DNA from: Staphylospora marina
Lineage (GTDB): Bacteria; Bacillota; Bacilli; Thermoactinomycetales; Thermoactinomycetaceae
DNA: 64,000 nt
NCBI RefSeq assembly: GCF_003856495.1
Contig: NZ_CP034118.1
Span: 1,896,182 to 1,960,181, forward strand
Direction: 5' to 3'
This document shows positions 9,482 through 34,482 of this stretch, one piece after another. Made by a program: the position numbers and the translations under genes. How positions within the stretch are numbered: position 1 is the stretch's first letter; every line of letters starts with the position of its first letter. The notes beneath the pieces were generated by a model, which was given only the letters and a program-made list of their open reading frames with translations, was not told where the DNA came from and made no database searches.

Positions 9482-9496
9482 GAAAGGAGACATCTC

Positions 9497-11448: not shown

Positions 11449-11468
11449 AGGAAGTGAAAGAAGGAAAA

Positions 11469-11508: not shown

Positions 11509-11539
11509 TCTATGCCGGGAATGGATGATGAAGGAAAGG

Positions 11540-11956: not shown

Positions 11957-12041
11957 AAAACGAATGTCGCTTTCGTGGATGACCGGGTCGAATGTGATGA
12001 TTGGCTTGCTCCCCTCCCATTCCCGAAAAATGAACGCCCTA

Positions 12042-12802: not shown

Positions 12803-13150
12803 GTGAAAACCAGACTGATGCATGTGCGAGCCAATGTTTCCGATCTTCAGCGTGCGATCCGTTGGTATGAGGAAGTGCTCGGGTTCAAGGTGACGGATGT
12901 GTGGCCGCCGGAGAAGCCCAATTACGCACATTTTTCAAGCGAAGAGGGAGCGATTTTTGCCATCATGGAGGATGAAAACGTTCCTTCACACGGACGGTTC
13001 AACTTTTCCGTGTCCGATGTGGACGCTTTGTGGGAGCGGCTGAAGGACCGGGCGGAAGTGGTGGAGGAGCTGTTCGACACGCCGTACGGCTCAAGGAAAT
13101 TCACCATCCGGGATTTGGACGGAAACGAACTGGGATTTGTCAAAGGATGA
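12803..13150 (+). CDS. VOC (glyoxalase/bleomycin-resistance) superfamily protein
   Basis: A 115-residue single VOC domain: VRANVSDLQRAIRWYEEVLGF at the start and KFTIRDLDGNELGFVKG at the end are the paired beta-alpha-beta modules, with metal ligand candidates H (residue 6) and E (in GNELGF). Members include glyoxalase I, dioxygenases and antibiotic-binding proteins; activity cannot be told from sequence. The start is GTG 12803, nine bases after AGGAGG; the frame is open to 12671, but without a ribosome site or VOC-like sequence. A strong terminator follows. Confidence 0.83.
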   Translation: MKTRLMHVRANVSDLQRAIRWYEEVLGFKVTDVWPPEKPNYAHFSSEEGAIFAIMEDENVPSHGRFNFSVSDVDALWERLKDRAEVVEELFDTPYGSRKFTIRDLDGNELGFVKG

Positions 13151-13222: not shown

Positions 13223-14002
13223 TCAATTGGTTTCCACCTCCCGGTCCGTCCTTCCTCCGAGCAAAAACTTAAGCTCGTGAGCGACGGCCCGGGTGACGGC
13301 CGCTTCGTCTTCCTGAAGGAAAAAATGACCGCCGGGGAAGAGTTTCAGCTTGAACGGACCTTCGGTGACGCTTCGCCAGCCGTCCACTTCCTGCGGGGTG
13401 ACTTCCGCATCCCGGATGCCGGCAAAACCAATGACCGGACAGGTGAGAGGCCGGCCGAAGACATACTGATAGGTTTCCGCCACTTCCAGATCGGCGCGGA
13501 TGACGGGAGCGAAGAATTCGGCCCATTCGGGATGGTCCATCAGTTCGCCGGGGGTCCCGCCCATTTCACGGATGCGCTCGGCGAAGCGACGGTCGGACAT
13601 CAGGTGGATCGGGTCCTTGCGACGCGGAAGATGCGGAGCGCGAAAGGCGGAAACCAACAAAGCCATGGGCTGTTCGCCCAAATTCCTCCGGAACCAGCGG
13701 GCCAGTTCAAAGGCCAGCATGGCGCCCATGCTGTGGCCGAACAGCACAAACGGGGAACGGAGCGGCGTTTTCAGGATTTCTCCCGCCAAATCTTCGATCA
13801 GGACGGGCAGCTGACGGTACGGTTTTTCGCGGAAACGGACGCCACGCCCGGGCAGTTCCACGGGATGAACCCGGAACCGTTCGGGGAGGTGCTCTTTCCA
13901 GGATCGGTAGATGCGCGCCGAGCCCCCGGCATACGGAAAGCAGAACAGCTGGACGGTTTCGCCGTGTGTCACGGACGGATCCCCCTTTCCACGCTGGTTC
14001 AA
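13223..14002 (-). CDS. Type II thioesterase of the NRPS-PKS cluster
   Basis: A 259-residue alpha/beta hydrolase of the GrsT/SrfAD type. It has the early segment LFCFPYAGGSARIYRSW, the nucleophile motif GHSMGA (Ser near residue 90), an Asp region near 200 (GIRDAEVT) and GGHFF with the catalytic His near 226. Type II thioesterases clear mis-loaded or stalled groups from carrier-protein phosphopantetheine arms. The TTG start at 14002 overlaps the dehydrogenase stop (TTGA), so translation is coupled; a GTG eleven codons later is an alternative. It is the last gene of the biosynthetic operon. Chain release is not its task, because the line ends in a reductase. Confidence 0.92.
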   Translation of the reverse strand: MNQRGKGDPSVTHGETVQLFCFPYAGGSARIYRSWKEHLPERFRVHPVELPGRGVRFREKPYRQLPVLIEDLAGEILKTPLRSPFVLFGHSMGAMLAFELARWFRRNLGEQPMALLVSAFRAPHLPRRKDPIHLMSDRRFAERIREMGGTPGELMDHPEWAEFFAPVIRADLEVAETYQYVFGRPLTCPVIGFAGIRDAEVTPQEVDGWRSVTEGPFKLKLFPGGHFFLQEDEAAVTRAVAHELKFLLGGRTDREVETN

Positions 14003-15201
14003 CGGGCCTCCGGATGGGTGATCAGGGTGGAGGCGATGGTGCGCAGAAGCATGTTGGACGTGCCTTCGTAAATCTTGCCGATCTTGGCGTCACGATACAG
14101 CTTCTCGATCCCGTGACCTTTGCAGTATCCGTTTCCGCCGAAGATCTCCAGCGACCGGGAGGCGGCGTTTTCCGCGGCTTCGGAAGCGAGAAGCTTGGCC
14201 ATGGCGCAGACACGGAACCATTCCTTTCCCTCCGGTTGCCCCCGGTCCATCATGCGGGCGGCGTTGTACACCGTGAGCCGGGCCGCTTCCACTTCGGCAA
14301 ACGTGCGCGCCAGCGGAAATTGCACGCCTTGGTGGGCGGCGATCGGCTTCCCGAACTGAACGCGTTCCTGCGCGTAAGCCAGCCCCATGTCGAGGGCGGC
14401 TTGCGCCAGTCCCACCTGTTGCGCGGCGATCCCGAGTCTTCCCGGGTTCAGCGTTTCCATGGCCACGCGATTCCCTTCGCCGACGCGTCCCAGCACATTT
14501 TCCTTTCTCACGCGAACCCCGTCCAGGATCACGTCGCACATGGCATTGGCACGGATCCCCATCTTCTCCACCGGCTCTCCGACCGTAAGCCCGTTCGATT
14601 CCCGTTCCACCAGAAAGGCGGTGACGGCCGGGCTGCCGCTTCCGTCTTCCACTTTGGCAAAGATGAGAAACAATCCACCCTCCAGCGCGCCGCTGGCGAA
14701 TTTCTTGCGGCCGGTGAGCACGTACCCGTTTCCGTCCGGCACGGCCCGGGTGGTGAGCGCAAACGCGTCGCTGCCCGCCTGCTCTTCGGAGATGGAGAAG
14801 ACGCCGACGGTGTTTTTGGCCAGACGCGGAAGGTACCGGCGCTTCTGATCCCCGGTGCCGAACCTGAGCAGCGCGGGAATGATCAGGGCGTTTTGCACAT
14901 CAACGTAGACGGAAGTTCCCGCACAGACACGGGACAACTCCTCGATGGCCAGGACCGCGTGAAAGAAGCTCCCCCCCAAACCTCCGTACATTTTGGGAAT
15001 CCGGATCCCCATCAGTCCGGCGGCAAACAGCTCGTCCATCAGACCGGGGGCGATGCGCCCTTCCCGGTCCATTTGCTCCACGTGAGGACGAAGCCTGGTT
15101 TCGGCGAATTCCCGCACCCGCTCCCTCCAGGCCCGCTCTTCCTCAGACAGCCAAGTGAGGGGCAACCGGGCGCCGTCAGCGGCCGACGCCGGCTTGTTCA
15201 T
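13999..15201 (-). CDS. Acyl-CoA dehydrogenase family flavoenzyme (tailoring)
   Basis: A 400-residue FAD-dependent acyl-CoA dehydrogenase homologue: PKMYGGLGGS in the N-terminal helical domain, ISEEQAGSD in the flavin-contacting loop, AYAQERVQFGKPIA, and IYEGTSNM with the usual catalytic Glu near residue 378. The chosen ATG at 15201 follows GGAGGTGGAGAGG and lies 26 nt inside the monooxygenase gene. In assembly-line clusters such enzymes oxidize carrier-bound acyl or aminoacyl groups to the alpha,beta-unsaturated state. Plausible substrates here are the starter fatty acyl chain or a later intermediate; neither can be chosen from sequence. Confidence 0.9.
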   Translation of the reverse strand: MNKPASAADGARLPLTWLSEEERAWRERVREFAETRLRPHVEQMDREGRIAPGLMDELFAAGLMGIRIPKMYGGLGGSFFHAVLAIEELSRVCAGTSVYVDVQNALIIPALLRFGTGDQKRRYLPRLAKNTVGVFSISEEQAGSDAFALTTRAVPDGNGYVLTGRKKFASGALEGGLFLIFAKVEDGSGSPAVTAFLVERESNGLTVGEPVEKMGIRANAMCDVILDGVRVRKENVLGRVGEGNRVAMETLNPGRLGIAAQQVGLAQAALDMGLAYAQERVQFGKPIAAHQGVQFPLARTFAEVEAARLTVYNAARMMDRGQPEGKEWFRVCAMAKLLASEAAENAASRSLEIFGGNGYCKGHGIEKLYRDAKIGKIYEGTSNMLLRTIASTLITHPEAR

Positions 15202-16378
15202 TCCTCTCCACCTCCACTCCCTCATCGTCAAACGCCAGGAGCCTTTGCCAGGTCGCAAGGTTGGCCTTTTGCGGGAAGAAGTGTTTCAGGTACATGTTTT
15301 TCAGTTGAACGAACAGAGGATTTCCCATCTTCTGCATTTTGGCGCCGAAGAACACTTTCCCGCGGATCCAGTCCATGCGCGGTTTGCGACGGTCCACGTA
15401 TCGCCGCAAACCTTCCCGGACATCCGTCGCTCCGGCCAGCGATTCGGCCAACACAACGGCGTCCTCGAGCGCCTGACAGGCTCCCTGTCCGTACACGGTG
15501 GGCATGGCATGTGCGGCGTCGCCCAGCAGAACGACCCGTCCGTCGATCCACGTTTCCGCTTCGGTCCAGGCGTGACCGTCGATGCGGAAAATATCCTCCT
15601 CCGGCGTCAGTTCCACCGCCTTTTTCATCGGCTCGGGGAACTTTTCGAGCAGGGTGAGCAGCTTCCGTTTCACGGTACCCGGTTCATCCTTGCCGCCCGG
15701 TTCGGTATTCAGGCCGATCGTCCAGGAGAAGCGGGTGTCGTCGACGGCCCAGCATCCGCCGTTCAAACCGTTGGTGCCCCAGAACATGGCGAGATTTCCC
15801 GGTTCGATGCCCACCGGTCCCGAGGAAATGCCGCGCCAGATGGTATAGCCGAGGTATTCCGGTTCTCCGCATCCCGTCATTTGCTTCCGGATGGCGGAAC
15901 GGATCCCGTCGGCGCCGATCAGTGCGGCTCCCCGCACTTCCTCCCCGTTTTCCATGAGCAGGGTGACGCCGTCCGCATCCTGCCGGTAACCGGTGACGGC
16001 GACGCCGAACCGGATCGGCACGTCTTCGGCCCCGGCACGGAGGATGCGCATGAGATCGGAACGTCGCAGATTGACGGACGGGACCCGGGAAATTTGTTCC
16101 ACCGGGGTGTCCATCAAAAGGTCCCCCTTGTAAGAATAGATCGTTTGACGGCGGATGCGCGCCCCGGTCGCGACCACCGCGTCGCCCAGTCCGAGCCGGT
16201 TCAACGCGGTGATGGCATTGCTCCAGATGTTGAGCGCCGTTCCGCGTTCCGCCAGAATGTTTTCACGCCGTTCGAAGATTTCCGCTTCAAAGCCTTTCTG
16301 CTTGAGGGCGATGGCGGTGGCCAATCCCCCGATTCCGGCTCCGGCGATCAGGATGCGTCTTGTATCGTCTCGGGTCAT
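15176..16378 (-). CDS. FAD-dependent monooxygenase (tailoring)
   Basis: A 400-residue group A flavin hydroxylase (UbiH/PHBH fold). The Rossmann GAGIGGL motif is at residues 12-18, then LIGADGIRSAIR near 150 (the DG motif) and the FAD ribityl motif GDAAHAMP near 287 followed by GQGACQALEDA. Relatives hydroxylate electron-rich rings or enolizable positions using NAD(P)H and O2. The ATG follows AAGAGGAGAG and lies 140 bp after the reductase-NRPS stop. It overlaps the dehydrogenase gene, suggesting that the pair acts in sequence on the product. An activated methylene between the thiazole and thiazoline would be an attractive target, but this is inference. Confidence 0.9.
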   Translation of the reverse strand: MTRDDTRRILIAGAGIGGLATAIALKQKGFEAEIFERRENILAERGTALNIWSNAITALNRLGLGDAVVATGARIRRQTIYSYKGDLLMDTPVEQISRVPSVNLRRSDLMRILRAGAEDVPIRFGVAVTGYRQDADGVTLLMENGEEVRGAALIGADGIRSAIRKQMTGCGEPEYLGYTIWRGISSGPVGIEPGNLAMFWGTNGLNGGCWAVDDTRFSWTIGLNTEPGGKDEPGTVKRKLLTLLEKFPEPMKKAVELTPEEDIFRIDGHAWTEAETWIDGRVVLLGDAAHAMPTVYGQGACQALEDAVVLAESLAGATDVREGLRRYVDRRKPRMDWIRGKVFFGAKMQKMGNPLFVQLKNMYLKHFFPQKANLATWQRLLAFDDEGVEVERNEQAGVGR

Positions 16379-16403
16379 CGCTTTCTCTCCTCTTCCCGGA
16401 TTG

Positions 16404-16427
16404 CCGGGGGCTCCGGAGAGCCCCCGG
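16404..16427. repeat. Intra-operon hairpin
   Basis: CCGGGGGCTC (16404-16413) and GAGCCCCCGG (16418-16427) form a perfect 10-bp stem with a 4-base loop, between the reductase-NRPS stop and the monooxygenase start on the minus strand. There is no T-run, so attenuation or mRNA end protection is more likely than full termination. Confidence 0.5.
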
Positions 16428-16518
16428 AGAAATTGCGAAATTCATGGACACGATCCACGTGAATCATGCCGGTGGTACGAGTGGCATTTCCGTGACCGCT
16501 GCCGTTCCCCGGTCCCGC

Positions 16519-19500
16519 TCACCGGGAAGCCAACGACACCATGAATCTGCGCAGCACCTCCGGCGTCATGTCGGGACACGGGAATTCGCGGCCCACTCCT
16601 TCCGTGGTGAGCGAGGTGTCGAAGACGGGATCCCGATGCCCCGTCAGGTGGCGATCGATAAATTCCTCAAACAGGGCCAGAACGGTCCGGTCTTCCTCGC
16701 TTCCTTGTTCCACCTTCTTCTTCGCCGCTTCCAACCACTCGGGCCAGCTCAGGACGCGGAATGAGTCGTCCATGTCCCGCGCGGCGATTCCGAGCACCTC
16801 AAAGTGCGGCGGATTCGGATGTGCCAGATGGAACACTTTGCCGAGGCTCTCTTTTTTGCGGGACAAACGAACGAGCGCGCCGCTCACCCAATCGACCGGG
16901 ACGAGATCCAGCGTCAGGTCCAGTTTGGGCATCAGTCCCCAGACGGCAAAGCGTTTCAGGATTTGGCCGACGATGTCGCGGGCTTTCCAAAGCCCGGATT
17001 CGCTGTGACCGGCGACGCGGCCGGGGCGGTAAATGACCACCGGCAACCCGCGTTCCCGGGCCTGAAGCACCATGCGCTCCGCCACCCATTTGCTCTCCGC
17101 GTAGCCGCTGAGCAAAACGGACGGAGGCGTTTCGATCAGGTCCGTCTCACGGACGGCTTCGTCATGGCCGACGCCGACGGTGCCCACCGTGGAAACATGA
17201 TGCAGCACCTTGGTTTTCCCGGCGCAGGCAAAGCGGAGAATTTCCCGCGTGCCGTCCACGTTTTCCGGTTTCAGCTGCTCGTACGGGAGCAGGAAGTTGA
17301 CACGGGCTCCGCAGTGGTAGATCTCGTCGATTTCCTCCGACAGGCGATCCCACACGGAATCGGTGAGTCCCAGTTTCGGTTTGCCGAGATCTCCGGGTAC
17401 GGGGAGGATCCGTGACCCGAACGCCTCCTCCCACACGCCGGATGCCTGCAGATTGGCCGTGAGTTTTCGCTTGCCCTCTTCTTCATCTTTCGCCCGGACC
17501 AGACAATACACCTCGGCATCGGTCAGACGAAGGAGCTGTTCGAGGAGGTATCCGCCCAAAAATCCGGTCCCGCCGGTCAACAGCACTTTGCGCGGATGCT
17601 CCGTCCATTCGGCGGGCGCCTCCGGACGAATGTGCCCGTCCAGCACGGCATCCCGCATCAGCACATCGGGCGACGCCGCGGTACGTCCCGTTTCCCCGCT
17701 GTCCAACCAGGCGGCCAACGCTTCCACGGTGGGCGATTCAAACAGCTTCGGCAACGGAAGCTCTTTTTTCATCGCCTGCCGGATGCGGGCCACCGCCCGT
17801 GCGGCCAGCAGCGAATGCAATCCCAGGTCGAGCAGATGATCGCGCACGCCCACCCGTTTCAGCCGGAGCATTTCACCGAACAGGCCGCAGAGCGCCTTCT
17901 CGGTCTCCGTCCTCGGCGCCACGTAGGTGCTGTCGTCGCCGGAAACAGCCGGCTTCGGCAGCGCCCGCTTGTCCAATTTGCCGTTGACGGTGAGCGGAAT
18001 CTCCTCCAACTCCACCCAAGCGACGGGCACCATGTACTCCGGCAGGTGTCTGCGGAGCGCATCGCGCAGCTCGGACACTTCCACCGGCCGTGACGGCACG
18101 TAGTAGGCCACCAGCCGCTTGTCGCCCGGCGTGTCTTCCCGGACGATCACCGCCGCTCCCTTGATCGCCGGATGATCCCGCAGCACTGAGGCGATTTCGC
18201 CCGGTTCCACCCGGAAGCCGCGGATTTTCACCTGATCGTCCATCCGCCCCAGGAATTCCATGTCTCCGTCGGGCAGGTAACGGGCCAGATCGCCGGAGCG
18301 GTACATCATCGCTCCCGGCTCGTCCGAGAACGGATCGGGAACGAAGCGGGCCTCCGTCAATTCGGGCCGGTTCAGGTATCCCCGAGCCACACCGGCACCC
18401 GCGACACAAATCTCGCCCGGAGCGCCGACGGGAACGGGTCTTTGCCGTTCATCCAACAGATAGATGGACAGATCGGGGAGCGGAATGCCGATCAGGCTGC
18501 GACCGCCGCGATCCAAATCCGCCTTCGTCACGCGGCGGAACGTGGCGTGCACGGTGATCTCGGTGATGCCGTACATGTTGATCAATTGCGGTCGCTCGTC
18601 CCCGTGCCGGTCGATCCACGGTTTCAGGCTGGGGATGTCCAGCCGTTCCCCGGCGAACACCACGTAACGCAGCTTGAGATCGGATGCCCGCGGATGGGTG
18701 TTGTCCACGGGAATCAGCTGCAGGAAAGCCGACGGGGTTTGATTCAGCACGGTGACGTTCTTCTCCAGCAGAAGGCGGTAGAACGCCTCCGGATCGCGGC
18801 AGGTCCACCACGGAACGATCACCAGCTTGCCGCCGTGCAGGAAGGCCCCCCACATTTCCCACACCGACACATCGAAGGCAAACGAATGGAACAGCGGCCA
18901 GACGTCTTCTTCGGTGAACTCAAAGTGCTTGCGGGCACCGATCACCAGACGGGCCACGTTTTCGTGGGTGACCAGCGTCCCCTTCGGCCGGCCCGTCGTT
19001 CCGGACGTGTAAATCACGTACGCCAGGTGTTCCGGTTTCACGGAGCTTTCAACCGGAGAACCCTCTTCACCGATCCACTCCTCTTCCGCATCCAGTCTGA
19101 GCACCTGTCCGTCAAACGCCACACGTTCGGCCAAATCGCCCTCGGCGAGGAGCACCGAAGCTCCCGCGTCTTCCAGAATCAGTCGGATGCGCTCCGGCGG
19201 ATACATGGGATCCAAAGGAACATATGCGGCCCCGGCTTTCAAAATGCCGAGAATTCCGGAAACGGTGTGAATGGAGCGATCCACCAGCAGTGCCACCCGG
19301 TCTTCCGTTTTCACGCCCGATCGCTTCAGACGGCGGGCGATCCGGTTGGTCAGCTCGTCCAGCTCCCGGTAGGTCCAGCTCCGGTCGTCATGCTCGACGG
19401 CGATGCGGTCCGGGGTACGGGACGCCTGTTCACGGAACAGTTCATGCAGCGGCCGGTCGACGGGGACATGTTCCCGCTTGTTTCGCTTTGCCAGAAACGC

Positions 19501-20829
19501 CTTTTCCTCCGCGGTGAGCACCTCGATGTCGGAAAGTCGCCCGTCCGGATGGCGGGTGAATGCCTCCAGCACCGTGCGCACGTTGTTCAGAAACCGACGG
19601 GCCGCTTCTTGATCGAACCTGCGCCTGTCGTACACCAGGCGCAGCGGCATGTAGTCGCCGGGCAAGGCGATCAGGGTGAGCGGATAATGCGGCCGGCCGT
19701 CATACCAAGCCTCCAGCAGAGAAAGCCCCACTTCGTCCAGAGAGTATTCGGGGATGGGAACGTTCTCGAAGGCCACCGTGCTCTCAAACAGGCGGCTGAC
19801 CAGGGACGTCTCGCTCCATTCCTGGATCTTGTCCAGCGGAATGCCTCCGTGTTCGCGGACGGCGGCTTGCTCCGCCTGGAATGACTGCAACCACTCCAGC
19901 ACCTTGCGCTCGGGATCCAGACGGGTGCGCACCGGCAAGGTGATCAGCATCGGCCCCATCATCGTTTCACTGCCCAGATCCAGCAGATCGACCGGTTGAT
20001 GGGCCATGGTGGATCCCGCCACCACGTCGTCGGTTCCCAGGTACCGCCCCAGCACCACCATCCATGCCGCTTGGATCATGGTGTTCATGGTCAGGCGTCC
20101 TTCGCGGATGAAACGATGCAAGGGTTCGGCCAGATCCCGAAGGTGGATTTCCTCAAAAGCGTGGGTCACTTGCGCTTCGGAATCGGGCTCCCCGAGCATG
20201 AGCGGTTCGGGAGGCTCATACCCTTTCAGGTAATCACGCCAAAACGTTTCGTGCCTTTCCGGCTTCGCCCGTTTCCACCACGCCACGTAATCGCGATACG
20301 GGCGGGCGGTCGGCAGGACCGGGGTTTTCCCTTGTCGGAGCGCTTTGTACAGGGTGAGAAACTCGGAAATGGCAACGCCGAACGACCATCCGTCCATGGC
20401 GATGTGGGGGAATCGCCAGGCGAAACGCCACGTCTCTTCATCAAAGCGAATCAAGGTGAGGCGCATCAGCGGCGGCCGGGTCAGATCAAAATCCTTCTGC
20501 CGGTCTTCCAGCAGGAACGCCGCATAGCGGCGCTCCCGCTCTTTGGAAGACAGATGCGTCCAATCCCACACTTCCAGCGGAACGTCCACCCGGCGATGCA
20601 CCACCTGCAGCGGCTTCTCCAGCTCCTTGGCATGAATGGCCGTGCGCAGGATCGGGTGACGGGCCACCACTTTCCGCCAGGCGGCATGGAAGTCTTCGAT
20701 GTTCATTTCCCCTTGGAAAGTGAAGTTCAACTGTTCCACGTACACGCCGGAACGGGGAGCGTACATCAGATGAAACAGGAAGCCTTGCTGAATGGGAGAC
20801 AGTTCATAAATATCCTCGATGTTTTTCAC
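16519..20829 (-). CDS. NRPS module C-A-PCP-R with terminal thioester reductase
   Basis: A 1436-residue peptide synthetase. Condensation domain: about 1-435, with the core motif PHIAMDGWS near 143 (second His kept, first His replaced by Pro). Adenylation domain: about 465-985, with YTSGTTGRPKG near 611. Reading the pocket by eye gives D-V-W-N-V-A-M-V-H-K, closest to threonine codes. Carrier Ser in LGLHSLLA is near 1005. Reductase domain: about 1080-1436, with TGGTGFLGGYLL near 1090 and the YAESK catalytic Tyr/Lys near 1243, predicting NAD(P)H-dependent release of the chain as an aldehyde or alcohol. The GTG start overlaps the previous stop (GTGA). It is the terminal module. Domain calls are secure; the substrate is inferred. 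Confidence 0.93.
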   Translation of the reverse strand: MKNIEDIYELSPIQQGFLFHLMYAPRSGVYVEQLNFTFQGEMNIEDFHAAWRKVVARHPILRTAIHAKELEKPLQVVHRRVDVPLEVWDWTHLSSKERERRYAAFLLEDRQKDFDLTRPPLMRLTLIRFDEETWRFAWRFPHIAMDGWSFGVAISEFLTLYKALRQGKTPVLPTARPYRDYVAWWKRAKPERHETFWRDYLKGYEPPEPLMLGEPDSEAQVTHAFEEIHLRDLAEPLHRFIREGRLTMNTMIQAAWMVVLGRYLGTDDVVAGSTMAHQPVDLLDLGSETMMGPMLITLPVRTRLDPERKVLEWLQSFQAEQAAVREHGGIPLDKIQEWSETSLVSRLFESTVAFENVPIPEYSLDEVGLSLLEAWYDGRPHYPLTLIALPGDYMPLRLVYDRRRFDQEAARRFLNNVRTVLEAFTRHPDGRLSDIEVLTAEEKAFLAKRNKREHVPVDRPLHELFREQASRTPDRIAVEHDDRSWTYRELDELTNRIARRLKRSGVKTEDRVALLVDRSIHTVSGILGILKAGAAYVPLDPMYPPERIRLILEDAGASVLLAEGDLAERVAFDGQVLRLDAEEEWIGEEGSPVESSVKPEHLAYVIYTSGTTGRPKGTLVTHENVARLVIGARKHFEFTEEDVWPLFHSFAFDVSVWEMWGAFLHGGKLVIVPWWTCRDPEAFYRLLLEKNVTVLNQTPSAFLQLIPVDNTHPRASDLKLRYVVFAGERLDIPSLKPWIDRHGDERPQLINMYGITEITVHATFRRVTKADLDRGGRSLIGIPLPDLSIYLLDERQRPVPVGAPGEICVAGAGVARGYLNRPELTEARFVPDPFSDEPGAMMYRSGDLARYLPDGDMEFLGRMDDQVKIRGFRVEPGEIASVLRDHPAIKGAAVIVREDTPGDKRLVAYYVPSRPVEVSELRDALRRHLPEYMVPVAWVELEEIPLTVNGKLDKRALPKPAVSGDDSTYVAPRTETEKALCGLFGEMLRLKRVGVRDHLLDLGLHSLLAARAVARIRQAMKKELPLPKLFESPTVEALAAWLDSGETGRTAASPDVLMRDAVLDGHIRPEAPAEWTEHPRKVLLTGGTGFLGGYLLEQLLRLTDAEVYCLVRAKDEEEGKRKLTANLQASGVWEEAFGSRILPVPGDLGKPKLGLTDSVWDRLSEEIDEIYHCGARVNFLLPYEQLKPENVDGTREILRFACAGKTKVLHHVSTVGTVGVGHDEAVRETDLIETPPSVLLSGYAESKWVAERMVLQARERGLPVVIYRPGRVAGHSESGLWKARDIVGQILKRFAVWGLMPKLDLTLDLVPVDWVSGALVRLSRKKESLGKVFHLAHPNPPHFEVLGIAARDMDDSFRVLSWPEWLEAAKKKVEQGSEEDRTVLALFEEFIDRHLTGHRDPVFDTSLTTEGVGREFPCPDMTPEVLRRFMVSLASR

Positions 20830-26800: not shown

Positions 26801-28406
26801 ACACCACGTCGCGCTCGCGGTCGGCGGTGAAAGAGAGCACGCGCCGGGGATCTTTGCTCCGCAGGGCCTCGGCCGCATCCTCCGGACGTTCCGCCACCAC
26901 GATCCGGCGATGCCGGAACGCTTGCCGTCCGGTCTGCAGCGTGTGTGCGACATCGGCAAGCCGCTGCTCCGGATGAGCGGCGAGATGGTCTGCCAAAAGC
27001 GTGGTGGCCTGCTCCAGCGCGGACGGCGTCTTGGCGGACAGGACGATCAGCTGTGCGTCATTTCCGCCCTTCACCGGTTTCACCTCCGGGGCTTGTTCGA
27101 GAATCACGTGGGCGTTGGTCCCTCCGATTCCGAACGAGCTGACCGCCGCCCGTCTCGGCCCGTTCCCTTTCGGCCATTCCTTCAGTTCCGTGTTGACGTA
27201 AAAGGGCGTGTTTTCAAAGTCAATGGCCGGATTGGGCTTGGTGAAATTGATGTTCGGAACGATCAACCCGTGCTTGACCTGCAACACGGCTTTGATCAGT
27301 CCGGCCACGCCGGCCGCCGCCTCCAGATGGCCGATGTTTCCCTTCACCGAGCTGACGGCGCAATATCCTTTCCTGTCGGTGCGGGAGCCGTAGGCCCGGG
27401 TGAGCGCCTCGATCTCGATCGGATCCCCGAGAGCCGTTCCGGTGCCGTGCGCCTCGATGACACCGACCGATTCCGGATCGATGTCGGCCATTTCCAGGGC
27501 CGTGACCAACACCTGGGTTTGGCCTTCCACGCTCGGAGCCGTGTAGCCGACCTTCCAGGAGCCGTCATTGTTGACGGCGGAGGCCTTGATCACCGCTTCA
27601 ATGCGGTCACCGGCGGCCATGGCGTCTTCCAGCCGTCTCAGCACCACGATGCCGGCTCCGCTGCCGAAAATGGTTCCCTTGGCATCGGCGTCGAAGGGGC
27701 GGCAATGTCCGTCGGGCGAGAACATGGTGCCGTCCTGCCACAAATACCCGCTCTTTTGCGGAACCCGGATCGACACCCCGCCGGCAAGGGCCATGTCACA
27801 GTCGTAGGCGATCAGTGCCTGGCAGGCCAGATGAACGGCGACCAGGGAGGTGGAGCATGCCGTTTGCACGTTGACGCCCGGTCCCGTCAGATTCAGCTTG
27901 TAGGCGACGCGGGTGGACAAGTAATCCTTGTCGCTGTTGATCAGAATGTCAAATCCCTGTGCGCTGCGCGGAAGCCCCCGTCCGGCCAGCAGGTTGTTCA
28001 GGAAGTATTCCGGCATGCCCGCGCCTGCGTACACGCCGATCAGGCCGTCGAATGTCCCGGGATCGTATCCCGCTTTCTCCAGCGCTTCCCAGGCAAGCTC
28101 CAGGAAAACCCGCTGCTGGGGATCCAGCAGCGAAGCTTCCCGCGGGTTGTAGCCGAAGAACGCCGCGTCAAACCGATCGATGTCCTCCATCACCGGAGAC
28201 GCTTTCACATAGTGGGGGTTTCGGAGAACATCGGCGGGGATGTTCTCCGAAAGCAGTTCTTCCTCGGAGAAAAAGGTGACAGATTCGACGCCGTTTTTCA
28301 GGTTGTTCCAGTACTCCTCCAGGTTTTTGGCGCCGGGAAACCGGCCCGCCATCCCGATGATGGCGATGTCGTTCGGACTGAAGTGCTTTTCCTCACTTGC
28401 CGTCAT
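20826..28406 (-). CDS. Hybrid PKS-NRPS: KS-AT-ACP-Cy-A(Cys)-PCP-E-like
   Basis: A 2526-residue megasynthase (ATG 28406 after GAGGAGGG, overlapping the previous gene by 14 nt). KS: TACSTS near residue 183, EAHGTGT near 318, GNIGHLEAA near 358. AT: GHSIGE near 630 and HAFHS near 727, the malonyl-CoA signature. ACP Ser (LGGHSLLA) is near 966. No KR, DH or ER is present, so the beta-keto group should stay. Cyclization domain: about 1035-1450, with ELIITDIGS in place of the DxxxxDxxS motif near 1166. Adenylation domain: pocket D-L-Y-N-M-S-L-I-W-K, a cysteine code; no oxidase is inserted. PCP Ser (MGGDSIM) is near 2042. The last 420 residues resemble an epimerization domain, but the HHxxxDG motif reads HRLAADT near 2219, so it is probably inactive. 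Confidence 0.93.
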   Translation of the reverse strand: MTASEEKHFSPNDIAIIGMAGRFPGAKNLEEYWNNLKNGVESVTFFSEEELLSENIPADVLRNPHYVKASPVMEDIDRFDAAFFGYNPREASLLDPQQRVFLELAWEALEKAGYDPGTFDGLIGVYAGAGMPEYFLNNLLAGRGLPRSAQGFDILINSDKDYLSTRVAYKLNLTGPGVNVQTACSTSLVAVHLACQALIAYDCDMALAGGVSIRVPQKSGYLWQDGTMFSPDGHCRPFDADAKGTIFGSGAGIVVLRRLEDAMAAGDRIEAVIKASAVNNDGSWKVGYTAPSVEGQTQVLVTALEMADIDPESVGVIEAHGTGTALGDPIEIEALTRAYGSRTDRKGYCAVSSVKGNIGHLEAAAGVAGLIKAVLQVKHGLIVPNINFTKPNPAIDFENTPFYVNTELKEWPKGNGPRRAAVSSFGIGGTNAHVILEQAPEVKPVKGGNDAQLIVLSAKTPSALEQATTLLADHLAAHPEQRLADVAHTLQTGRQAFRHRRIVVAERPEDAAEALRSKDPRRVLSFTADRERDVVFLFPGQGSQYPGMTRELYESEPVFRNRVDACADLLKPHMGVDLRELLYPEDPGSEDAAEHLKATAVAQPALFTVSWALAGLLESWGIRPKAMLGHSIGEYAAACLAGVLSLEDALRLVAIRGRLMNGLPSGSMLSVALPESEVKSLLTADLSVAAVNAPDLCVVSGTHEAVDRLEKHLREKGVACRRLHTSHAFHSAMMDPVLEDFRQAVRGVTLHPPNTPYVSNVTGTWITAEQATDPDYWVTHLRETVRFGDGVAAIAESGPSILLEVGPGQTLGTLARQCLGTGSGHVILQTVRHPQDGMSDVRFLLTAAGRLWMAGGSLDWKGLHRGEPRFRVELPSYPFERRRYWIEPQGVQTGPMDFTASEETDAEAEAAASGEFVLSAHHPRPPLASEFVAPRDERERLVAEIWQDFLGVAPVGVHDNFFELGGHSLLAAQVLGKVSERLGKQIPLSVLMENPTIAGLMENMENIGEQESDSLEASLPELVPEPDKLHEPFPLREMQQAQWIGRLGGFNVSDVAAHVYFEIDSDHIDLDRLNAAWQKVMERHPMLRTVILPDGRQQILDRPPRYEIRVTDIRQESPEEKERHLKEVRDRLSHIVRPVDQWPLFEICATRIDDRKVRLHLSFELIITDIGSIRILLRDWHRCYKGKEELFEALPFTFRDYVLAEQAIRDTPVYQRSLEYWQERVKTLPPAPDLPMKTHPETIGKPTFSRIGDRLSPEAWERLKQKAARCGVTPSAVLTAAYSQVLAAWSKNQHFSLNLTVINRMPFHPQVRNMVGEFGTFNLLEVNAADPKPFEDFVRDVQKQIWRDLEHRAVSGVRVLRELARVQGGTSGAVMPVVFTSTIVQDTEPDDVLFDWLGDVTYMISQTPQVWLDHAVIETRRGLELSWVVLDGLFPDGMVEDMFSAYCRFLNALADGEDTWKSSRFDWLPERQRRIREQVNATEGPVPDALLQEPFLKQAARKPDHPAVISASGTVTYGELLRRANRIGRQLRGLGARPNHLVGIAVRKGWEQVAAVLGVLQSGAAYLPIDPDLPEERQRYLIEHGQVKWLITLDGEPLPAAGDGVHTLAAASDGWEGPEGEPLEPVARPDDLAYVIYTSGSTGLPKGVAITHRAALNTILDINERFGVGEEDAVLALSSLSFDLSVYDVFGLLAAGGTIVMPESGAGRDPARWIQLIREHRVTVWNTVPALMEMLAEHALGQGETGLPLKVVMMSGDWIPVQLPDRIRSMADGARIWSLGGATEASIWSIHYPITEVKREWESIPYGVPLRNQTFHVLNERMDPSPEWVPGQLYIGGVGLAQEYWRDQEKTDAGFIRHPVTGERLYRTGDLGRYLPDGNIEFLGREDFQVKIRGFRIELGEIEAAITGDPGVRTAVVAAVGTDRSHLRLAAFVVPEEPFDQPDGEEASEWLDRLKQHVAENIPSYMVPVQWLILDQLPLSSNGKVDRKALNRLAMADSQGGGEAAGETADELAIEIASVVADVLGTEHVGLHQNFFEMGGDSIMAIQIISRLNARGIEVTPQDVFAHQTIAELSRVVRKKEPMAASGQTVPVPAEQVAWIEAGPAAVGQLVLDVPEDFDSAVAERALAVLLRHHDALRLRVFRDEKGWMMSVADPDDFEPYIPLIDLSAFSEGEREAALDEMLEEMRKEMDLTRGPLLSTALFDLGDGIRKWVWHLHRLAADTTSWSILLRDVSGLYEQLRTGADGWLAKPAVEWGEWMKRLAERQEESADREIKGELIAGQSETAPMAVSAEGMTARGVRIHVRLSREETEPLLGEAAAVHRVSVTELTTAALTRAWKRLTGDSRFLFGLERERRGDREAAQRLRKTVGGFSGTVSMKLEVVDQSAGAWLAHVKDQVRGEGEDAPARVRILRPLMLDDWREEAPLFGIDARHTMPGSGPMEPAWLEIVPVVANDELRFVFLADGAHYTEEAVRRMADAMLAELRELAADEPSVETALSPEDFADAGLDREELLQFLQMLNGGDEQ

Positions 28407-31400
28407 CCTGTCCGTTCCCTCCTCTGCGATTCCTTTTCGCTCCGAGTCTTCCGCGGGCTTCCCGTTTGAGACGGGCACGGTCGCTTCCCTTCCTGAGCGC
28501 TTCATCCCGATCCGTCTGACCGGAGAGATGCGCCGCCAGAAGAGAGATGTTGGGATAGTGGAACAGGGAGATCAGCGGAAAATCCATGCCCAGCTTGGCC
28601 TGAATCCGGCTGTGTGCCCTGGCAACCGTCACCGAGTCGGCACCGAGATCGAAAAAGTTGTCGTGAATGCCCACTTTTCCGACCCCGAGGAGCTCTTCCA
28701 GGACATGGGCGATCACTTGCTCCGTTTCATTTCGCGGCGCGGTGTACGTGCGGGGAGTCTGCCGGGCCTTTTCCGCAAGCCTCGTCAACTGCTTCCGGTC
28801 CACTTTGCCGGTGGGGCTCAGCGGCAGCGCTTCCAGCCGGATGATCGTTTGCGGCACCATGTACTCCGGCAACTGCCCTGTCAGAAACTCCTGCAATTCC
28901 TTTTCGAAGGACATCCTGCCGAGCCGCTTGCCTCCGGGCGGCCCGGAAGACGCTTCGGAGAGCGGCCCTCCCATCATGCTGTGCAGAAACTCGTGGTCAT
29001 CGTCCAGGCGGAACAGTTCCTTCAACCGATGACCGTTGCGAATCGCGCCGATCTGGCACACGCCGATGCCCTGCAAGGGAGCTGCCAGTTCGATCAGCTG
29101 GGCCATCAATCCCGCCTCAATCAGGCTGAGGTCGCGCGCTTTCCGTCCGTACAGCGGGCGGATCGCATCCATCTTGCCGATGAAGAACAGGGCGAACGCG
29201 GCTTCCGAGAGCATCTTGTGGTTGTAACGGAAATGCAGTTCCTCCGTGATGCGGGCATCCGGATGGATCGACACCAACCGGTGGCCGCGGGGGTCGTACC
29301 AGTATGTCCCCGGTGCGACATCCCGGATCCGTCCGGGTGCCACCCAGACATACGTCTGCACCGGGTAAAGAGCCTGTGCCGATCCGTAATGGTACTTGTA
29401 ACCGCCTTCCGTCTCCCGGGCGGCAAGCAATTTGAGCAGCGAGCCGAGCGATTCGGCGGACAATTCCTCCCGCCCGAACGTTCGTCGGCTGGTCCGGAGA
29501 GCGAGAACTTCGTCCAGAGGGGTTTCCGAAATCGTTTCCGGAAACGGAACCGCTTCCCCGTTCAAATCCGTGCGGAGCCCCTTGCGACGCATCTGGAATT
29601 CAAAGCGTTCCACCGGATTGAGCACCGCACCGGCCAGCTCTTCTTCGGAGAACAACTCCCGCGCCTCATCGAGCCGGAGCTCTTCCTCTTCCCGTCCCCC
29701 GTCCCGCTTTTGCACGACAAACGCCGTCAGCCGCTTGCGATTCCGCTCGCCGGCCGCCACGGCCACCGCCGCTTTCACGTCGGGATGGCGGGTGAGCGCC
29801 GCCTCGATTTCCCCGAGCTCGATGCGGAATCCGCGAATCTTCACCTGAAAGTCTTCGCGGCCCAGGAATTCAATGTTACCGTCAGGCAGGTACCGTCCCA
29901 AATCCCCCGTCCGGTACAACCGTTCGCCGGTGAACGGATGACGGACAAAGCCGGCTTCCGTCTTGTCCGGATCGCGCCAATACTCCCTGGCAAGACCGGT
30001 CCCGCCGATGTAAAGCTGGCCGGGAACCCAATCCGGACACGGCTCCAACCGCTCGTTGAGCACATGGAACGTCTGGTTTCCGAGCGGCTTTCCGTACGGG
30101 ATGCTTTCCCATGACGGATCCACTTCACCGATCGGGTAATGGATCGACCAGATCGATGCTTCCGTCGCCCCGCCCAAGCCGTAAATCTTTGCGCTTCCGT
30201 CCGTCACGGCCCGGATGCGGTCCGGCAGGTTCACCGGAATCCAGTCACCGCTCATCATCACGATCCGAAGCGGGATGTTCTCCCGTCCCGAAGCGGCATG
30301 TTCGGTGAGCATTTCCATCAGGGCGGGCACCGTGTTCCACACCGTCACCCGATGCTCCCGGACCAGCCGCAACCACTCTCCGGGATCGCGACCCGCTCCC
30401 GCCTCCGGCATCACCACTTTGCCTCCGGCTGCAAGCAGCCCGAACAGATCGTACACCGAAAGGTCGAAACTGAGCGAGGACAAAGCCAGCACCGCGTCGT
30501 TTTCCGACACGCCGTAACGCCTGTTGATGTCCAGGATCGTGTTGAGCGCGGACCGGTGAGTGATGGCCACGCCTTTGGGGGTTCCGGTCGAACCCGACGT
30601 GTAAATCACGTATGCCAGATCGTCCGGCGATGCGACGGGTTCCGGCGGATCCCCGGCAGGACCTTCCCATCCTCCGAGCGTCGCCGCCACGGTTTTCACC
30701 GAATCCCCCGCTGCCGGAAGCGGTTCTCCGTTTCGGGTGATCACCAGCCGCGCCTGTCCGTGTTGCAGGAGATACCGCTGCCGCTCTTCGGGCAGGTCGG
30801 GATCCACCGGAAGGTATGCCGCTCCGGACTGAAGCACTCCCAACACGGCCACGGCCTGCTCCCATCCTTTGCGCACCGCCACTCCGACCAGTTCGCCGGG
30901 TCGCGCTCCCAGTTCCCGAAGCTTGCGCCCCAGCCGGTTGGCCCGGCGAAACAGCTCTCCGTAAGACAGGCTCACGTCCCCCGCCGCGACGGCCGTCCGG
31001 TCGGGATGGAGGCATGCGCGCTCGATGAACGGCTGATGAATCAGTTTGTCGGGAACCGGAACCGCCGTGTCGTTGACCGCCCGGCGCACCTCGGCCTGTC
31101 TGTCCGGCAACCATTCAAACCGGGAAGCTCCCCAAGCCGTTTCTCCGTCCGAAAGCGTCTCCAAAAACCGGCGATACGCGGAAAACATGTCTTCCACCAT
31201 GCCGTCCGGGAACAGTCCTTCCACCACGTCCCAGTGGTACACAAGATCCCCGTCGACTTCGTACACCTGGTGGTCGATCCATACCTGCGGCGTCTGGGAC
31301 ACCCCGTACACGACGTCCCCGAATCTTTTCAGCGGCAGATCGGACGTTTCTCCTTTCAGCTGCGCCAGTGCGCTGGTGAACACGACGGGCATCATGATGC

Positions 31401-34400
31401 CGGGGCGAATTCTGCCGAGCTCGCGCAGCACGTCCACCCCGCTGAACCAACTGTGATCCAGGTCTTTCCACAGTTGTTGCTGCATCCGCTTCGCCGCCGC
31501 TTCAAACGGTGACGGTCGGGTCAGGTCCACTTCGAGCAGGTTGACGGAGGTGAAATCCCCGAAGATCCGGTCCACTTCCGGATGCAGCGGATGCCGGTTG
31601 AACAGCGTCACATTCAACGTGAACCGCTGACTTTTGCTCCAGGCCCCCAGCACGTGCGCATATGCCGTCAGCAACACGTTGCTCGGCGTGACGCCCGCCT
31701 CTTTGGCCCGCTCTTTCACCCAGTTCCAGCGGTCGGCGGACATCCGTCCGTTGTGACGACGGAAACGGGGCCGGCGAATGGTCTCCGGTGACGTTTTGAG
31801 CGGAAGTTCCGGTGCGGCCGGAATGTCGTTCAGACGGGCCGTCCAGTAATCGCGCGATTCCTTCCAGATGTCGGTCTCCCGGACCTCTTCCAGCGTGAGG
31901 ACATAATCCCGGAAAGAGACCCCGGGTGCATCGGACTTCGTGCTCTTGCCTTCGTAGAGATCCATCCACTCCCCGAGCAGCAGACGGAAACTCCAAACGT
32001 CCCCGATCAGCAAATCGAAGCTGAAATGCAACCGGATCCGATCCCCCGGCATCCGGGTGGCACACACTTCGAACAGCGGCCACTCATCCGCGGGACGAAC
32101 TTCATGTGACAACCGTTCCCGGACCTTGCGGATGTGCGCCTTTACTTCCTCCGGGGACCGGTCGGACACATCGGTCACCCGGATCTCGTACGGCGGCACT
32201 TCCTCCAAAATCCGCTGCCGCCCGTCGGGGAGAATGACGGCGCGCAACATCTCGTGCTTTTGAATCAAGTGCCGGAAAACGTCATTCAGCCGTTTCACGT
32301 CGAGCCCGGCGGCTTCCACCTCGTAGTAGGCATGCGTGGAAACGTTCCCGAGCGCGAAAGCCCCGCTGCGCCCGACATAATAGGCATATTGGATGTCCGT
32401 CAGCGGGAACGGTTCGTGTCGGTTCGCCGGATCCGGCTTCACTTCGGGCAAACGGTTGGGAGCGCTTTCCAACTGCCGCAGCACGGCCCCGGCGACATCC
32501 CGGATCGTCTCAACCATCGGCAACTTCACGTCAAACTGCTTCTCCATTCTGCCGTACAAATTCATCGTGCTGAGCGATCCCATGCCGAGAGAAGTGAGCG
32601 GAACGTCCACCCCGAACGAACGCGGGTCGATGTCCAACATGTCGGCAACCATCCGGCGCAGATGATCCTCCAGCACGGTCTTTCGCAGCGTGACGGGCAG
32701 TTTGAGCAACGCATTCCGGTCGAGCTGTTCCCGCCGGTCATTTTTCAGCACGCTGACCGCGAGCGGCGAGAGTTCTCCGTTCAAAAACGCCTTTCGACAT
32801 GCCCGCCGCTGGATCTTCCCGCTGGTCGTGAGCCGGATGTCGGATCGGCGCACCAACACGACGCAATGAATCTCCGCCTCATGTTCTTCCGCCACGGCGC
32901 GGCGCACCGCACGGATGATATCGTCGTAATTTCCGGTCTTGCGCGGACGAGCAGCCTGAACCAACACCAGGCGCTCCTGACCGTCGATGAGGACGGAAAA
33001 CGCCGCCGCCAATCCCGGAAGCAGTTCCGGATGGGCCGCCCCCGCGGTCCATTCGATGTCCTGCGGATACAGATTGCGTCCGGCAAGAATGATCAAATCC
33101 TTGATCCGGCCGGTGACATACAGCTCTCCCTCATGCAGGAAGCCGAGATCTCCGGTGCGCAGGAACGGTCCCTCCCCGGTGCCGGCCAGGCGGGCCCCGA
33201 ACGTTTCCTCCGTGGCTTCCTCATTGCCCCAGTAGCCCAAGGCGACGTGTTCTCCCGCCACCCAGATTTCGCCGACTTTTCCTTCCGGCAACTCTTCGAG
33301 GGTGTCGGGATCGACGATGGCCACCCGGCAATCTTTCACGATCTCGCCGCAATTGACCACGGACAGACGTCGATCGTCGCTTTCGGAGGCCCGTTCCACC
33401 GATCCCGCCTCGAAGCGATCTCCTTTCACCTCAATCGCGATCCGCGGAGAGGTGTTGGCGGACACCATCAGCGTCGATTCCGCCAAGCCGTAGGCCGGGG
33501 TCAATGCTTCCCGCCGGAATCCGTACGGCTCAAAACGCCGCGCAAACCGCTCGAGCGTCTCGGCATGAACGGACTCGGAACCGTTGATCGCCCGGTACCA
33601 ACGGGACAGGTCCAGCCCTTCACATTCTTCATCCGTCAGATTCCGCGCGCAGCGGTCGTACGCGAAGTTCGGACCCGCACTGAAAATCGATTCCGCTTCC
33701 GTCTCCGTGATCGCCTTCAACCACCTCAGCGGTTTTTGCACGAAATGTTCCGGAGCCATCAGCGTACAGCTGCCGCCGACATATTGGGACATGAGAATTT
33801 TCCCGATCAGACCCATGTCATGATAAAAAGGCAACCAGCTGACGATTCCGGCACCTTGCGGAATATCGAGCCGTTGACGCATCATCTCCGCGTTGGCCAG
33901 CAAATTTCCGTGGCTCACCATGACTCCCTTGGGCAGGGAGGTGGAGCCGGAAGTATACTGCAAAAACGCCAGCGTGTTCCGGTCGATGTCCGGTTCGGTC
34001 CAGGCGTCCGCGGATGACTCGTCGATCCGGTCCACGGCAAGCCAGGCGAGGTGATCCGGCAAGTCAAACTTTTGCCAGCGCCCTTCGAGTTTGTCGAGCA
34101 GTTCCGAATGGGTCAGCACCACTTTGGCTCCGCAGTCACGGGCAATCGTGACAAATCTCTCGAGCGGGGAGCTGAGCCGCGCCCGTGGAGCCGCCGGAAC
34201 ATTGCACGGAACCGCCACCATGCCGGCATACAGACAGGCGGAAAACGCCTGAATCATTTCCAGGCTTTGCGGAAACAGCAACATCACCCGGGTGCCGGGG
34301 GCAAAACCGTCCTGAAGAAGTGCTGCGAGCGCTCGTGACTTCCGGTCCAATTCCTCTTTCGTCCAAACGAACTTGTCCGATTCTCCGTCCCGCAAGAACG

Positions 34401-34482
34401 TGTAGGCCACTTGATCCGGAAACCGGTCAGCTTGTGTTCGAAGAAGCTGAACCCAGGTCTTCACGGAACGGACAGAGTCCAA
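28393..34482 (-). CDS. FAAL-ACP-Cy-A(Cys)/Ox-PCP loading and first thiazole module
   Basis: A 2029-residue starter protein (TTG 34482 after AAGGAGG). Fatty acyl-AMP ligase: about 1-570, with YTSGSTSLPKG and the FAAL-type WLPFYHDMGLIG, which activates a free fatty acid and loads it on the first carrier (LGMGSLS, Ser near 636). Cyclization domain: about 690-1110, with an intact DLLIGDVWS near 822. Adenylation domain: from about 1154, pocket D-L-Y-N-M-S-L-I-W-K (cysteine). A nitroreductase-like FMN oxidase is inserted between core motifs A8 (about 1550) and A10 (about 1890), spanning roughly 1650-1840 (RTSRRTFG, APLQGIGVCQIG), as in other thiazole-forming modules. PCP Ser (LGADSVTVA) is near 1948. 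Together these make a fatty-acyl-substituted thiazole. Confidence 0.93.
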   Translation of the reverse strand: MDSVRSVKTWVQLLRTQADRFPDQVAYTFLRDGESDKFVWTKEELDRKSRALAALLQDGFAPGTRVMLLFPQSLEMIQAFSACLYAGMVAVPCNVPAAPRARLSSPLERFVTIARDCGAKVVLTHSELLDKLEGRWQKFDLPDHLAWLAVDRIDESSADAWTEPDIDRNTLAFLQYTSGSTSLPKGVMVSHGNLLANAEMMRQRLDIPQGAGIVSWLPFYHDMGLIGKILMSQYVGGSCTLMAPEHFVQKPLRWLKAITETEAESIFSAGPNFAYDRCARNLTDEECEGLDLSRWYRAINGSESVHAETLERFARRFEPYGFRREALTPAYGLAESTLMVSANTSPRIAIEVKGDRFEAGSVERASESDDRRLSVVNCGEIVKDCRVAIVDPDTLEELPEGKVGEIWVAGEHVALGYWGNEEATEETFGARLAGTGEGPFLRTGDLGFLHEGELYVTGRIKDLIILAGRNLYPQDIEWTAGAAHPELLPGLAAAFSVLIDGQERLVLVQAARPRKTGNYDDIIRAVRRAVAEEHEAEIHCVVLVRRSDIRLTTSGKIQRRACRKAFLNGELSPLAVSVLKNDRREQLDRNALLKLPVTLRKTVLEDHLRRMVADMLDIDPRSFGVDVPLTSLGMGSLSTMNLYGRMEKQFDVKLPMVETIRDVAGAVLRQLESAPNRLPEVKPDPANRHEPFPLTDIQYAYYVGRSGAFALGNVSTHAYYEVEAAGLDVKRLNDVFRHLIQKHEMLRAVILPDGRQRILEEVPPYEIRVTDVSDRSPEEVKAHIRKVRERLSHEVRPADEWPLFEVCATRMPGDRIRLHFSFDLLIGDVWSFRLLLGEWMDLYEGKSTKSDAPGVSFRDYVLTLEEVRETDIWKESRDYWTARLNDIPAAPELPLKTSPETIRRPRFRRHNGRMSADRWNWVKERAKEAGVTPSNVLLTAYAHVLGAWSKSQRFTLNVTLFNRHPLHPEVDRIFGDFTSVNLLEVDLTRPSPFEAAAKRMQQQLWKDLDHSWFSGVDVLRELGRIRPGIMMPVVFTSALAQLKGETSDLPLKRFGDVVYGVSQTPQVWIDHQVYEVDGDLVYHWDVVEGLFPDGMVEDMFSAYRRFLETLSDGETAWGASRFEWLPDRQAEVRRAVNDTAVPVPDKLIHQPFIERACLHPDRTAVAAGDVSLSYGELFRRANRLGRKLRELGARPGELVGVAVRKGWEQAVAVLGVLQSGAAYLPVDPDLPEERQRYLLQHGQARLVITRNGEPLPAAGDSVKTVAATLGGWEGPAGDPPEPVASPDDLAYVIYTSGSTGTPKGVAITHRSALNTILDINRRYGVSENDAVLALSSLSFDLSVYDLFGLLAAGGKVVMPEAGAGRDPGEWLRLVREHRVTVWNTVPALMEMLTEHAASGRENIPLRIVMMSGDWIPVNLPDRIRAVTDGSAKIYGLGGATEASIWSIHYPIGEVDPSWESIPYGKPLGNQTFHVLNERLEPCPDWVPGQLYIGGTGLAREYWRDPDKTEAGFVRHPFTGERLYRTGDLGRYLPDGNIEFLGREDFQVKIRGFRIELGEIEAALTRHPDVKAAVAVAAGERNRKRLTAFVVQKRDGGREEEELRLDEARELFSEEELAGAVLNPVERFEFQMRRKGLRTDLNGEAVPFPETISETPLDEVLALRTSRRTFGREELSAESLGSLLKLLAARETEGGYKYHYGSAQALYPVQTYVWVAPGRIRDVAPGTYWYDPRGHRLVSIHPDARITEELHFRYNHKMLSEAAFALFFIGKMDAIRPLYGRKARDLSLIEAGLMAQLIELAAPLQGIGVCQIGAIRNGHRLKELFRLDDDHEFLHSMMGGPLSEASSGPPGGKRLGRMSFEKELQEFLTGQLPEYMVPQTIIRLEALPLSPTGKVDRKQLTRLAEKARQTPRTYTAPRNETEQVIAHVLEELLGVGKVGIHDNFFDLGADSVTVARAHSRIQAKLGMDFPLISLFHYPNISLLAAHLSGQTDRDEALRKGSDRARLKREARGRLGAKRNRRGGNGQDDGK

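Follow-up and report, generated by a model that had tools for sequence, protein, structure and literature searches.

Organization of the gene cluster

A 64,000-nucleotide stretch of the Staphylospora marina genome (contig NZ_CP034118.1, positions 1,896,182 to 1,960,181; hereafter the window) contains a cluster of six minus-strand genes at 13223-34482, which encode a hybrid assembly line of polyketide synthase (PKS) and nonribosomal peptide synthetase (NRPS) type. Profile searches and an analysis of open reading frames (ORFs) in the window confirm an operon layout, with all genes in one direction and intergenic gaps of -26 to +140 bp (-14, -4, +140, -26 and -4 bp along the operon, using the preferred starts). 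The domain string is FAAL-ACP-Cy-A(Cys)-Ox-PCP / KS-AT-ACP-Cy-A(Cys)-PCP-Ct / C-A-PCP-R / monooxygenase / acyl-CoA dehydrogenase (ACD) / type II thioesterase. A preliminary description of this DNA had given these coordinates, strand, gene count and domain order and had proposed one operon, all of which proved correct. The genes and their main domains are as follows.

28393..34482 (-): gene 1, FAAL-ACP-Cy1-A(Cys)-[Ox]-PCP, 2029 aa (ORF, Pfam)
32758..34470 (-): FAAL domain, predicted to load a fatty acid (Pfam AMP-binding; NCBIfam FAAL models at sub-cut-off scores)
31138..32415 (-): Cy1, ordinary thiazoline-forming Cy domain, motif DLLIGDVWS (outside the pyridine clade in trees)
29668..31080 (-): A1, code DLYNMSLIW, Cys type (code extraction)
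28903..29652 (-): Ox, nitroreductase family, predicted to convert thiazoline to thiazole (Pfam)
20826..28505 (-): gene 2, KS-AT-ACP-Cy2-A(Cys)-PCP-Ct, 2559 aa (ORF, Pfam); probable start, an internal ATG at 28406
25806..26828 (-): AT domain, malonyl type, HAFH motif (motif)
24006..25343 (-): Cy2, pyridine-forming clade, EMQQAQW signature, ExxxxD replacing DxxxxD (trees, alignment)
22416..23978 (-): A2, code DLYNMSLIW, Cys type (code extraction)
20829..22178 (-): Ct domain, E/C fold, catalytic His absent, presumed docking site of the flavoprotein (alignment, predicted structure)
16519..20829 (-): gene 3, C-A-PCP-R, 1436 aa (ORF, Pfam)
17950..19452 (-): A3, code DVWNVAMVH (code extraction)
16522..17607 (-): R domain, YAESK motif (Pfam; best solved-structure match, MxaA reductase 4u7w)
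15176..16378 (-): gene 4, flavin monooxygenase, group A type, of a subfamily retained in FAAL clusters (Pfam, identity comparison)
13999..15201 (-): gene 5, CaeB1-type flavoprotein of the ACD family, with the S168 and E372 equivalents retained (alignment, tree); probable start, an internal ATG at 15201
13223..14002 (-): gene 6, type II thioesterase (Pfam), 42% identical to its counterpart at the cae locus L032

The three megasynthase frames contain no internal stops in this assembly. Pfam stretches in gene 1 comprise two AMP-binding, one Condensation, one Nitroreductase (Ox) and two PP-binding; those in gene 2 comprise KS, AT, two PP-binding, two Condensation and one AMP-binding, and gene 3 has Condensation, AMP-binding, PP-binding and NAD_binding_4 (R). 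Genes 4-6 match FAD_binding_3, acyl-CoA dehydrogenase and thioesterase. The 2.75 Mb genome contains four Condensation matches, all inside the cluster, and two phosphopantetheinyl-transferase matches outside it, in frames of 140 and 228 aa. Its 16S sequence shows 88-89% identity to plasmid-borne Bacillales copies among the matches listed, which places the organism in the Bacilli.

The FAAL domain supports a lipid starter, Cy1-A(Cys)-Ox the conversion of the first Cys into a thiazole, KS-AT the addition of one malonate unit, and the R domain a reductive release, each as previously suggested. Ox is inserted within A1, ahead of the C-terminal lysine motif of that domain. We take DLYNMSLIW, found in both A1 and A2, to be a Cys code, and the residues at which all A-domain codes were extracted to be the code positions; the HAFH motif of AT presumably indicates malonyl specificity.

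A predicted pyridine-forming module in gene 2

The order of domains in gene 2 matches that of CaeA2 from the caerulomycin pathway, which was reconstituted in vitro by Pang et al. (PMC8149447). The Ct domain of CaeA2 is without the catalytic His and binds an ACD-like flavoprotein, CaeB1, which dehydrogenates cysteinyl-S-PCP. Deletion of Ct, or mutation of the second Asp in the Cy motif, abolished the product, and the trio of Cy, Ct and ACD makes the pyridine in vitro (PMC8149447). Among our loci, L032 is the cae locus, from Actinoalloteichus caeruleus DSM 43889, because it has the published peptide as its carrier motif and a Ser falls at position 168 when the Glu of IYEGT is numbered 372.

Counterparts of all three elements of this trio are present in the window. 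In a first tree, for which loci were chosen by motif, Cy2 of the window lies inside the CaeA2 clade (23 rows, support 100/99). Since that scan was motif-selected, a second tree was built from domains gathered by whole-domain comparison, with no motif needed; 11 of its 19 pyridine-clade rows came from this motif-free search, six of them from genomes that already had scan loci. The pyridine clade was retained (19 rows versus 23 ordinary rows, support 100/99). The sequence QQ[AV]QW occurs in 19/19 pyridine-clade rows and 0/23 ordinary rows; this signature flags pyridine-forming Cy domains. The second Asp of the Cy motif, the residue mutated in CaeA2, is retained in the window.

The tail of gene 2, previously described as E-like, is a Ct domain without the catalytic His: Arg takes the place of the second His in HHxxxDG, and the catalytic His is found in none of 21 aligned Ct domains, an alignment that omits six loci without a detected carrier motif. 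An AlphaFold2 model (mean pLDDT 78.8) has a condensation/epimerisation fold; E-containing structures top its structure ranking, with an X domain at rank 39. An active epimerisation domain at this position was rejected, the catalytic His being replaced with Arg.

The ACD of the window is 53% identical to CaeB1 and 48-61% identical to the flavoproteins of related clusters, compared with at most 41% to paralogues of its own genome. Because a CaeA2-clade Cy2, a His-less Ct and a CaeB1-type flavoprotein are all present, the second ring is probably a pyridine. The arrangement is easily misread: when a KS-AT-ACP-Cy-A(Cys)-PCP protein has an E-like end and is accompanied by an ACD, it points to a pyridine, not to a beta-keto-thiazoline.

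Comparison with known assembly lines

The closest described system is that of karnamicin from Lechevalieria rhizosphaerae, reported by Yu et al. (PMC9838390). The domains listed in the legend to its pathway are FAAL, ACP, Cy, A, Ox, PCP, KS, AT, C, Ct and TE, and the line also has an ACD (KnmD), a type II TE (KnmA4) and two flavin hydroxylases. A C-A-PCP module adds Leu, which an amidohydrolase removes; the pyridine is dethiolated, and karnamicins inhibit ACE (PMC9838390). The window shares the FAAL, the Ox-bearing thiazole module in the starter arrangement FAAL-ACP-Cy-A-Ox-PCP (domains as named for karnamicin, order as in the karnamicin-like G417), the Ct-bearing PKS-NRPS, C-A-PCP, the ACD, the type II TE and a flavin hydroxylase. 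It differs in ending with R and a Ser-type code, whereas the last karnamicin module adds Leu and is without R; in having one monooxygenase of another subfamily instead of KnmB1 and KnmB2; and in belonging to the Bacilli. The amidohydrolase, asparagine synthase and O-methyltransferase of karnamicin were not seen in the operon; a scan confined to the operon and flanking ORFs, and not extended to other parts of the genome, found neither a CaeD-type amidohydrolase nor the latter two.

The combination of FAAL, thiazole and pyridine modules is thus already known from karnamicin. A cluster that we take to be of the karnamicin type (G417, Pseudonocardiaceae) has the domain order of the window up to the R domain, together with a Leu-type code and two monooxygenases, one of which shows the residue spacing reported for KnmB2 (counted by eye). 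The preliminary description, which recognized no known product with this order, needs revision on this point, given both G417 and the domain set named in the karnamicin legend. Among the openly licensed papers searched, karnamicin provided the one biosynthetic account of a thiazolyl-pyridine line; none on an R-terminated line or one from Bacillota was seen there, nor a product assigned to the R-bearing branch.

Caerulomycin and collismycin lines share with the window the KS-AT-ACP-Cy-A(Cys)-PCP-Ct protein, a CaeB1-type flavoprotein acting in trans, C-A-PCP and a type II TE. Their starter is picolinate, in contrast to the FAAL-thiazole of the window, and their Leu extension is removed later; R was not seen in the cae stretch examined. 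Yersiniabactin- and micacocidin-type lines share Cy-loaded Cys rings beside PKS modules, but Cy2 of the window belongs to the pyridine clade and is accompanied by Ct and a CaeB1-type flavoprotein.

Proposed pathway and alternative explanations

From the observed gene content, domains, motifs, clade membership and orthology, we consider that the operon of this Bacilli member encodes a hybrid line of the karnamicin/caerulomycin type whose product is released by a reductase (probability roughly 0.8). In the proposed pathway, FAAL would transfer a fatty acid onto the first ACP, and Cy1-A(Cys)-Ox would yield a 2-alkylthiazole-4-carboxyl thioester, to which KS-AT would add one malonate. A2 would load Cys, and the CaeB1-type flavoprotein, docked by Ct, would dehydrogenate Cys-S-PCP. 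Cy2 could then couple the Cys beta-carbon with the 3-oxo thioester; closure of the ring, with sulfide expelled, would give a 6-(thiazol-4-yl)-4-hydroxypicolinoyl thioester. The last module would append a Ser-like residue, and R would release an aminoaldehyde or, if this is reduced a second time, an alcohol. Hydroxylation of the heteroaryl core is the probable role of the monooxygenase. All of these chemical steps, with the timing of hydroxylation and the length of the alkyl chain, are inferred. The likely core is a 6-(2-alkylthiazol-4-yl)-4-hydroxypicolinamide with one sulfur.

The identity of the last residue is suggested by the A3 code, DVWNVAMVH, which is reported as an L-Ser code in tistrellabactin (PMC10391617). 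A3 would accordingly read Ser, not the Thr-like residue previously assigned. An apparent likeness of A3 to LgrA was discarded, its high score being the sum over two domains. With no CaeD-type amidohydrolase seen among the flanking ORFs scanned, the last residue may be kept in the product.

The metal binding proposed in the preliminary description would also be expected of this product: a 2-(thiazol-4-yl)pyridine should chelate metal through two nitrogens in the manner of a bipyridine. Collismycins and caerulomycins prefer Fe2+ (PMC11481915).

Several observations weigh against this interpretation. The Cy2 motif is ExxxxDxxS, with Glu for the first Asp, in the window and one other genome of the same order (G040) only (2/23 rows), so the catalytic activity of Cy2 is assumed here. 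Its identity is 47-53% to most pyridine Cy2 domains (38-53% across 22 strong matches) and up to 48% to ordinary Cy domains; percent identity by itself is thus a poor discriminator of the two clades. In the ACD tree, the clade that joins the window with 21 flavoproteins of Ct clusters has support of 91/93, below the 95 mark; this tree leaves out the flavoproteins of G407, G417 and L047, and one paralogue (41%) is absent from it because row L103 duplicates the neighbouring gene L104. G662 has Cy2, Ct and the flavoprotein, with neither FAAL nor R seen in the part of its sequence examined. Three residues tested in KnmB2 are missing from the monooxygenase of the window in an alignment by eye, and a KnmB2-type assignment was rejected on their absence. 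Finally, an M20-family hydrolase gene (10114-11448, opposite strand) lies 1.8 kb past the operon, and the last residue may be removed later.

The Cys sulfur may also remain, giving a thiolated pyridine as in collismycin. The caerulomycin line makes both dethiolated and thiolated forms, with the following C domain selecting between them (PMC8149447). This outcome is nevertheless improbable for the window, as the karnamicin pyridine is dethiolated (PMC9838390) and a Pfam scan of the six genes revealed no S-methyltransferase. More doubtful still, and rejected here, is the collinear product of the preliminary description, a yersiniabactin-like chelator with an alkylthiazole, a free beta-ketone, a thiazoline that may be epimerised, and a Thr-like end in reduced form. 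It takes the domain order at face value; Cy2 does belong to the Cy family, and the altered first Asp of its motif makes unusual behaviour possible. However, Cy2 falls outside the ordinary clade, it co-occurs with the His-less Ct and the CaeB1-type flavoprotein as in the caerulomycin trio, and A3 carries a Ser code. The idea that the ACD desaturates the lipid chain, with Ct as a relic, has ACD-family membership and lipid loading by FAAL in its favour, but we rejected it as very unlikely, because the protein shares a clade with the flavoproteins of Ct clusters, of which many show no FAAL in the stretch examined, and is distant from the paralogues of its own genome.

A reductase-bearing branch

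The predicted pyridine-forming line with reductive release is not confined to the window. An R domain with the monooxygenase downstream, and the flavoprotein after that, is found in eight clusters: the window, G040 and six actinobacterial clusters (G433, G543, G682, G407, G409 and G410). In the second tree, which does not include G410, the Cy2 subclade of the window (98/88) draws seven of its eight rows from R-bearing clusters, the exception being the divergent G662; in the sister subclade (100/97), R is seen in none of the 10 rows in the stretches examined. The tails of two clusters were fetched after the tree had been seen, and R proved present in G682 and absent from G662.

The A3 codes follow the same division. 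DYWSFGLVV occurs in 13 rows from 12 distinct genomes (including L032, G417 and L039), all from clusters where R was not seen, and is absent from the R-bearing clusters whose code was computed (seven, G682 not among them). Within the R branch the end residue appears to vary, because the G040 code (DVGTLITVY) differs from that of the window; that of G433 is DGWTVGAVW. G433 and G682, both from Pseudonocardiaceae, share with the window a single R-bearing last module, the monooxygenase, the flavoprotein and Ox, but differ in having TE encoded between genes 2 and 3. The G682 stretch begins inside Ox, and FAAL is not visible there. The monooxygenase of the window shares 37-62% identity with its counterparts in the R clusters and in L037, L038 and L039, which are FAAL clusters with a monooxygenase and without R, compared with 28-29% for the G417 pair.

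On balance, the R-terminated lines probably form an uncharacterised class, whose products would be alkyl-thiazolyl-hydroxypicolinoyl amino aldehydes or the corresponding alcohols, contain one to three amino acids, act as N,N metal chelators and keep the carrier amino acid. If so, their products would have a reactive or reduced end and retain the carrier residue, unlike the Leu removed in caerulomycin and karnamicin. The window would thus expose a branch in which the throw-away Leu module is exchanged for another residue and a reductase. The caerulomycin and karnamicin lines are actinobacterial, and the window appears to carry the same chemistry in a compact six-gene operon of the Bacilli.

Related clusters with two or three extra C-A-PCP modules were also observed (L028-L031, L046 and G543, the last comprising L089, L090 and L100). 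The codes of the extra modules include Gly-like ones such as DILQLGLVW, and R is seen in G543, G407, G409 and G410 (L029 and L031 unchecked). In G662 (L097/L098) the Cy2-A-PCP-Ct is divergent and comes with a 53% flavoprotein; the pyridine module may serve a different purpose there.

Distribution and a probable gene conversion in a related genome

A contig scan with Cy2 found 24 loci, 21 of which have a pyridine-clade Cy2, 20 being actinobacterial and one from Desulfoluna butyratoxydans (L047). The latter is a FAAL-thiazole-pyridine cluster beyond Actinomycetota and Bacillota, with the flavoprotein gene upstream; the monooxygenase had no match in that genome. Among 42 genomes of the order, Cy2 is found in that of the window (G000) and in G040; a 43% match in G001 groups with ordinary Cy domains. 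In the class, 18 of 398 genomes matched Cy2, namely these three and 15 others. Six of the 15 were placed in the tree as ordinary Cy, and QQ[AV]QW is absent from the 12 matches of the remaining nine (two of the 12 in L015 and L021). A phylum search of 398 genomes at E<=1e-125, a threshold too strict to recover a row at the distance of G662, returned only G000. No more than 4-5 candidates per genome were scored when the class, the phylum and Pseudonocardiaceae were searched, and 20 of the 44 matching genomes of Pseudonocardiaceae were examined. A plasmid search gave only general NRPS matches for gene 1 among the 20 matches listed, and identities of at most 48% for Cy2 among the best 15 of 193 matches.

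G040 has all six genes in identical order, with 48-62% identity to the window, while none of the flanking genes compared matched the G040 stretch. The GC content of the cluster is 62%, against 55% for the remainder of the window. The raised GC and the non-matching flanks fit a horizontal spread of the cluster, without proving it.

Gene 1 of G040 is without Ox. The A1 and A2 regions of this genome are 97.5% identical over 1551 bp (L022/L023; C1 ~878034-879585 and 884392-885943), compared with 71% over 1962 columns for the two copies in the window. This near-identical tract stops within ~5 bp of the site of the missing Ox, which was therefore probably lost through gene conversion of A1 by A2. 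In the rest of the G040 genome, a search for Ox gave only a weak 28% match; with no replacement found, the G040 product is predicted to carry a thiazoline rather than a thiazole. The loss of Ox in G040 and the Glu-for-Asp exchange in Cy2 represent natural experiments.

Neighbouring genes

Past the operon, the opposite strand (8363-13150, +) carries genes for an enolase-superfamily enzyme, a GNAT acetyltransferase, the M20 hydrolase and glyoxalase-family proteins. Upstream of the operon lie a DNA N6/N4 methylase gene (34993-36474, -) and, farther away, a Fic-domain gene (41344-41850, -).

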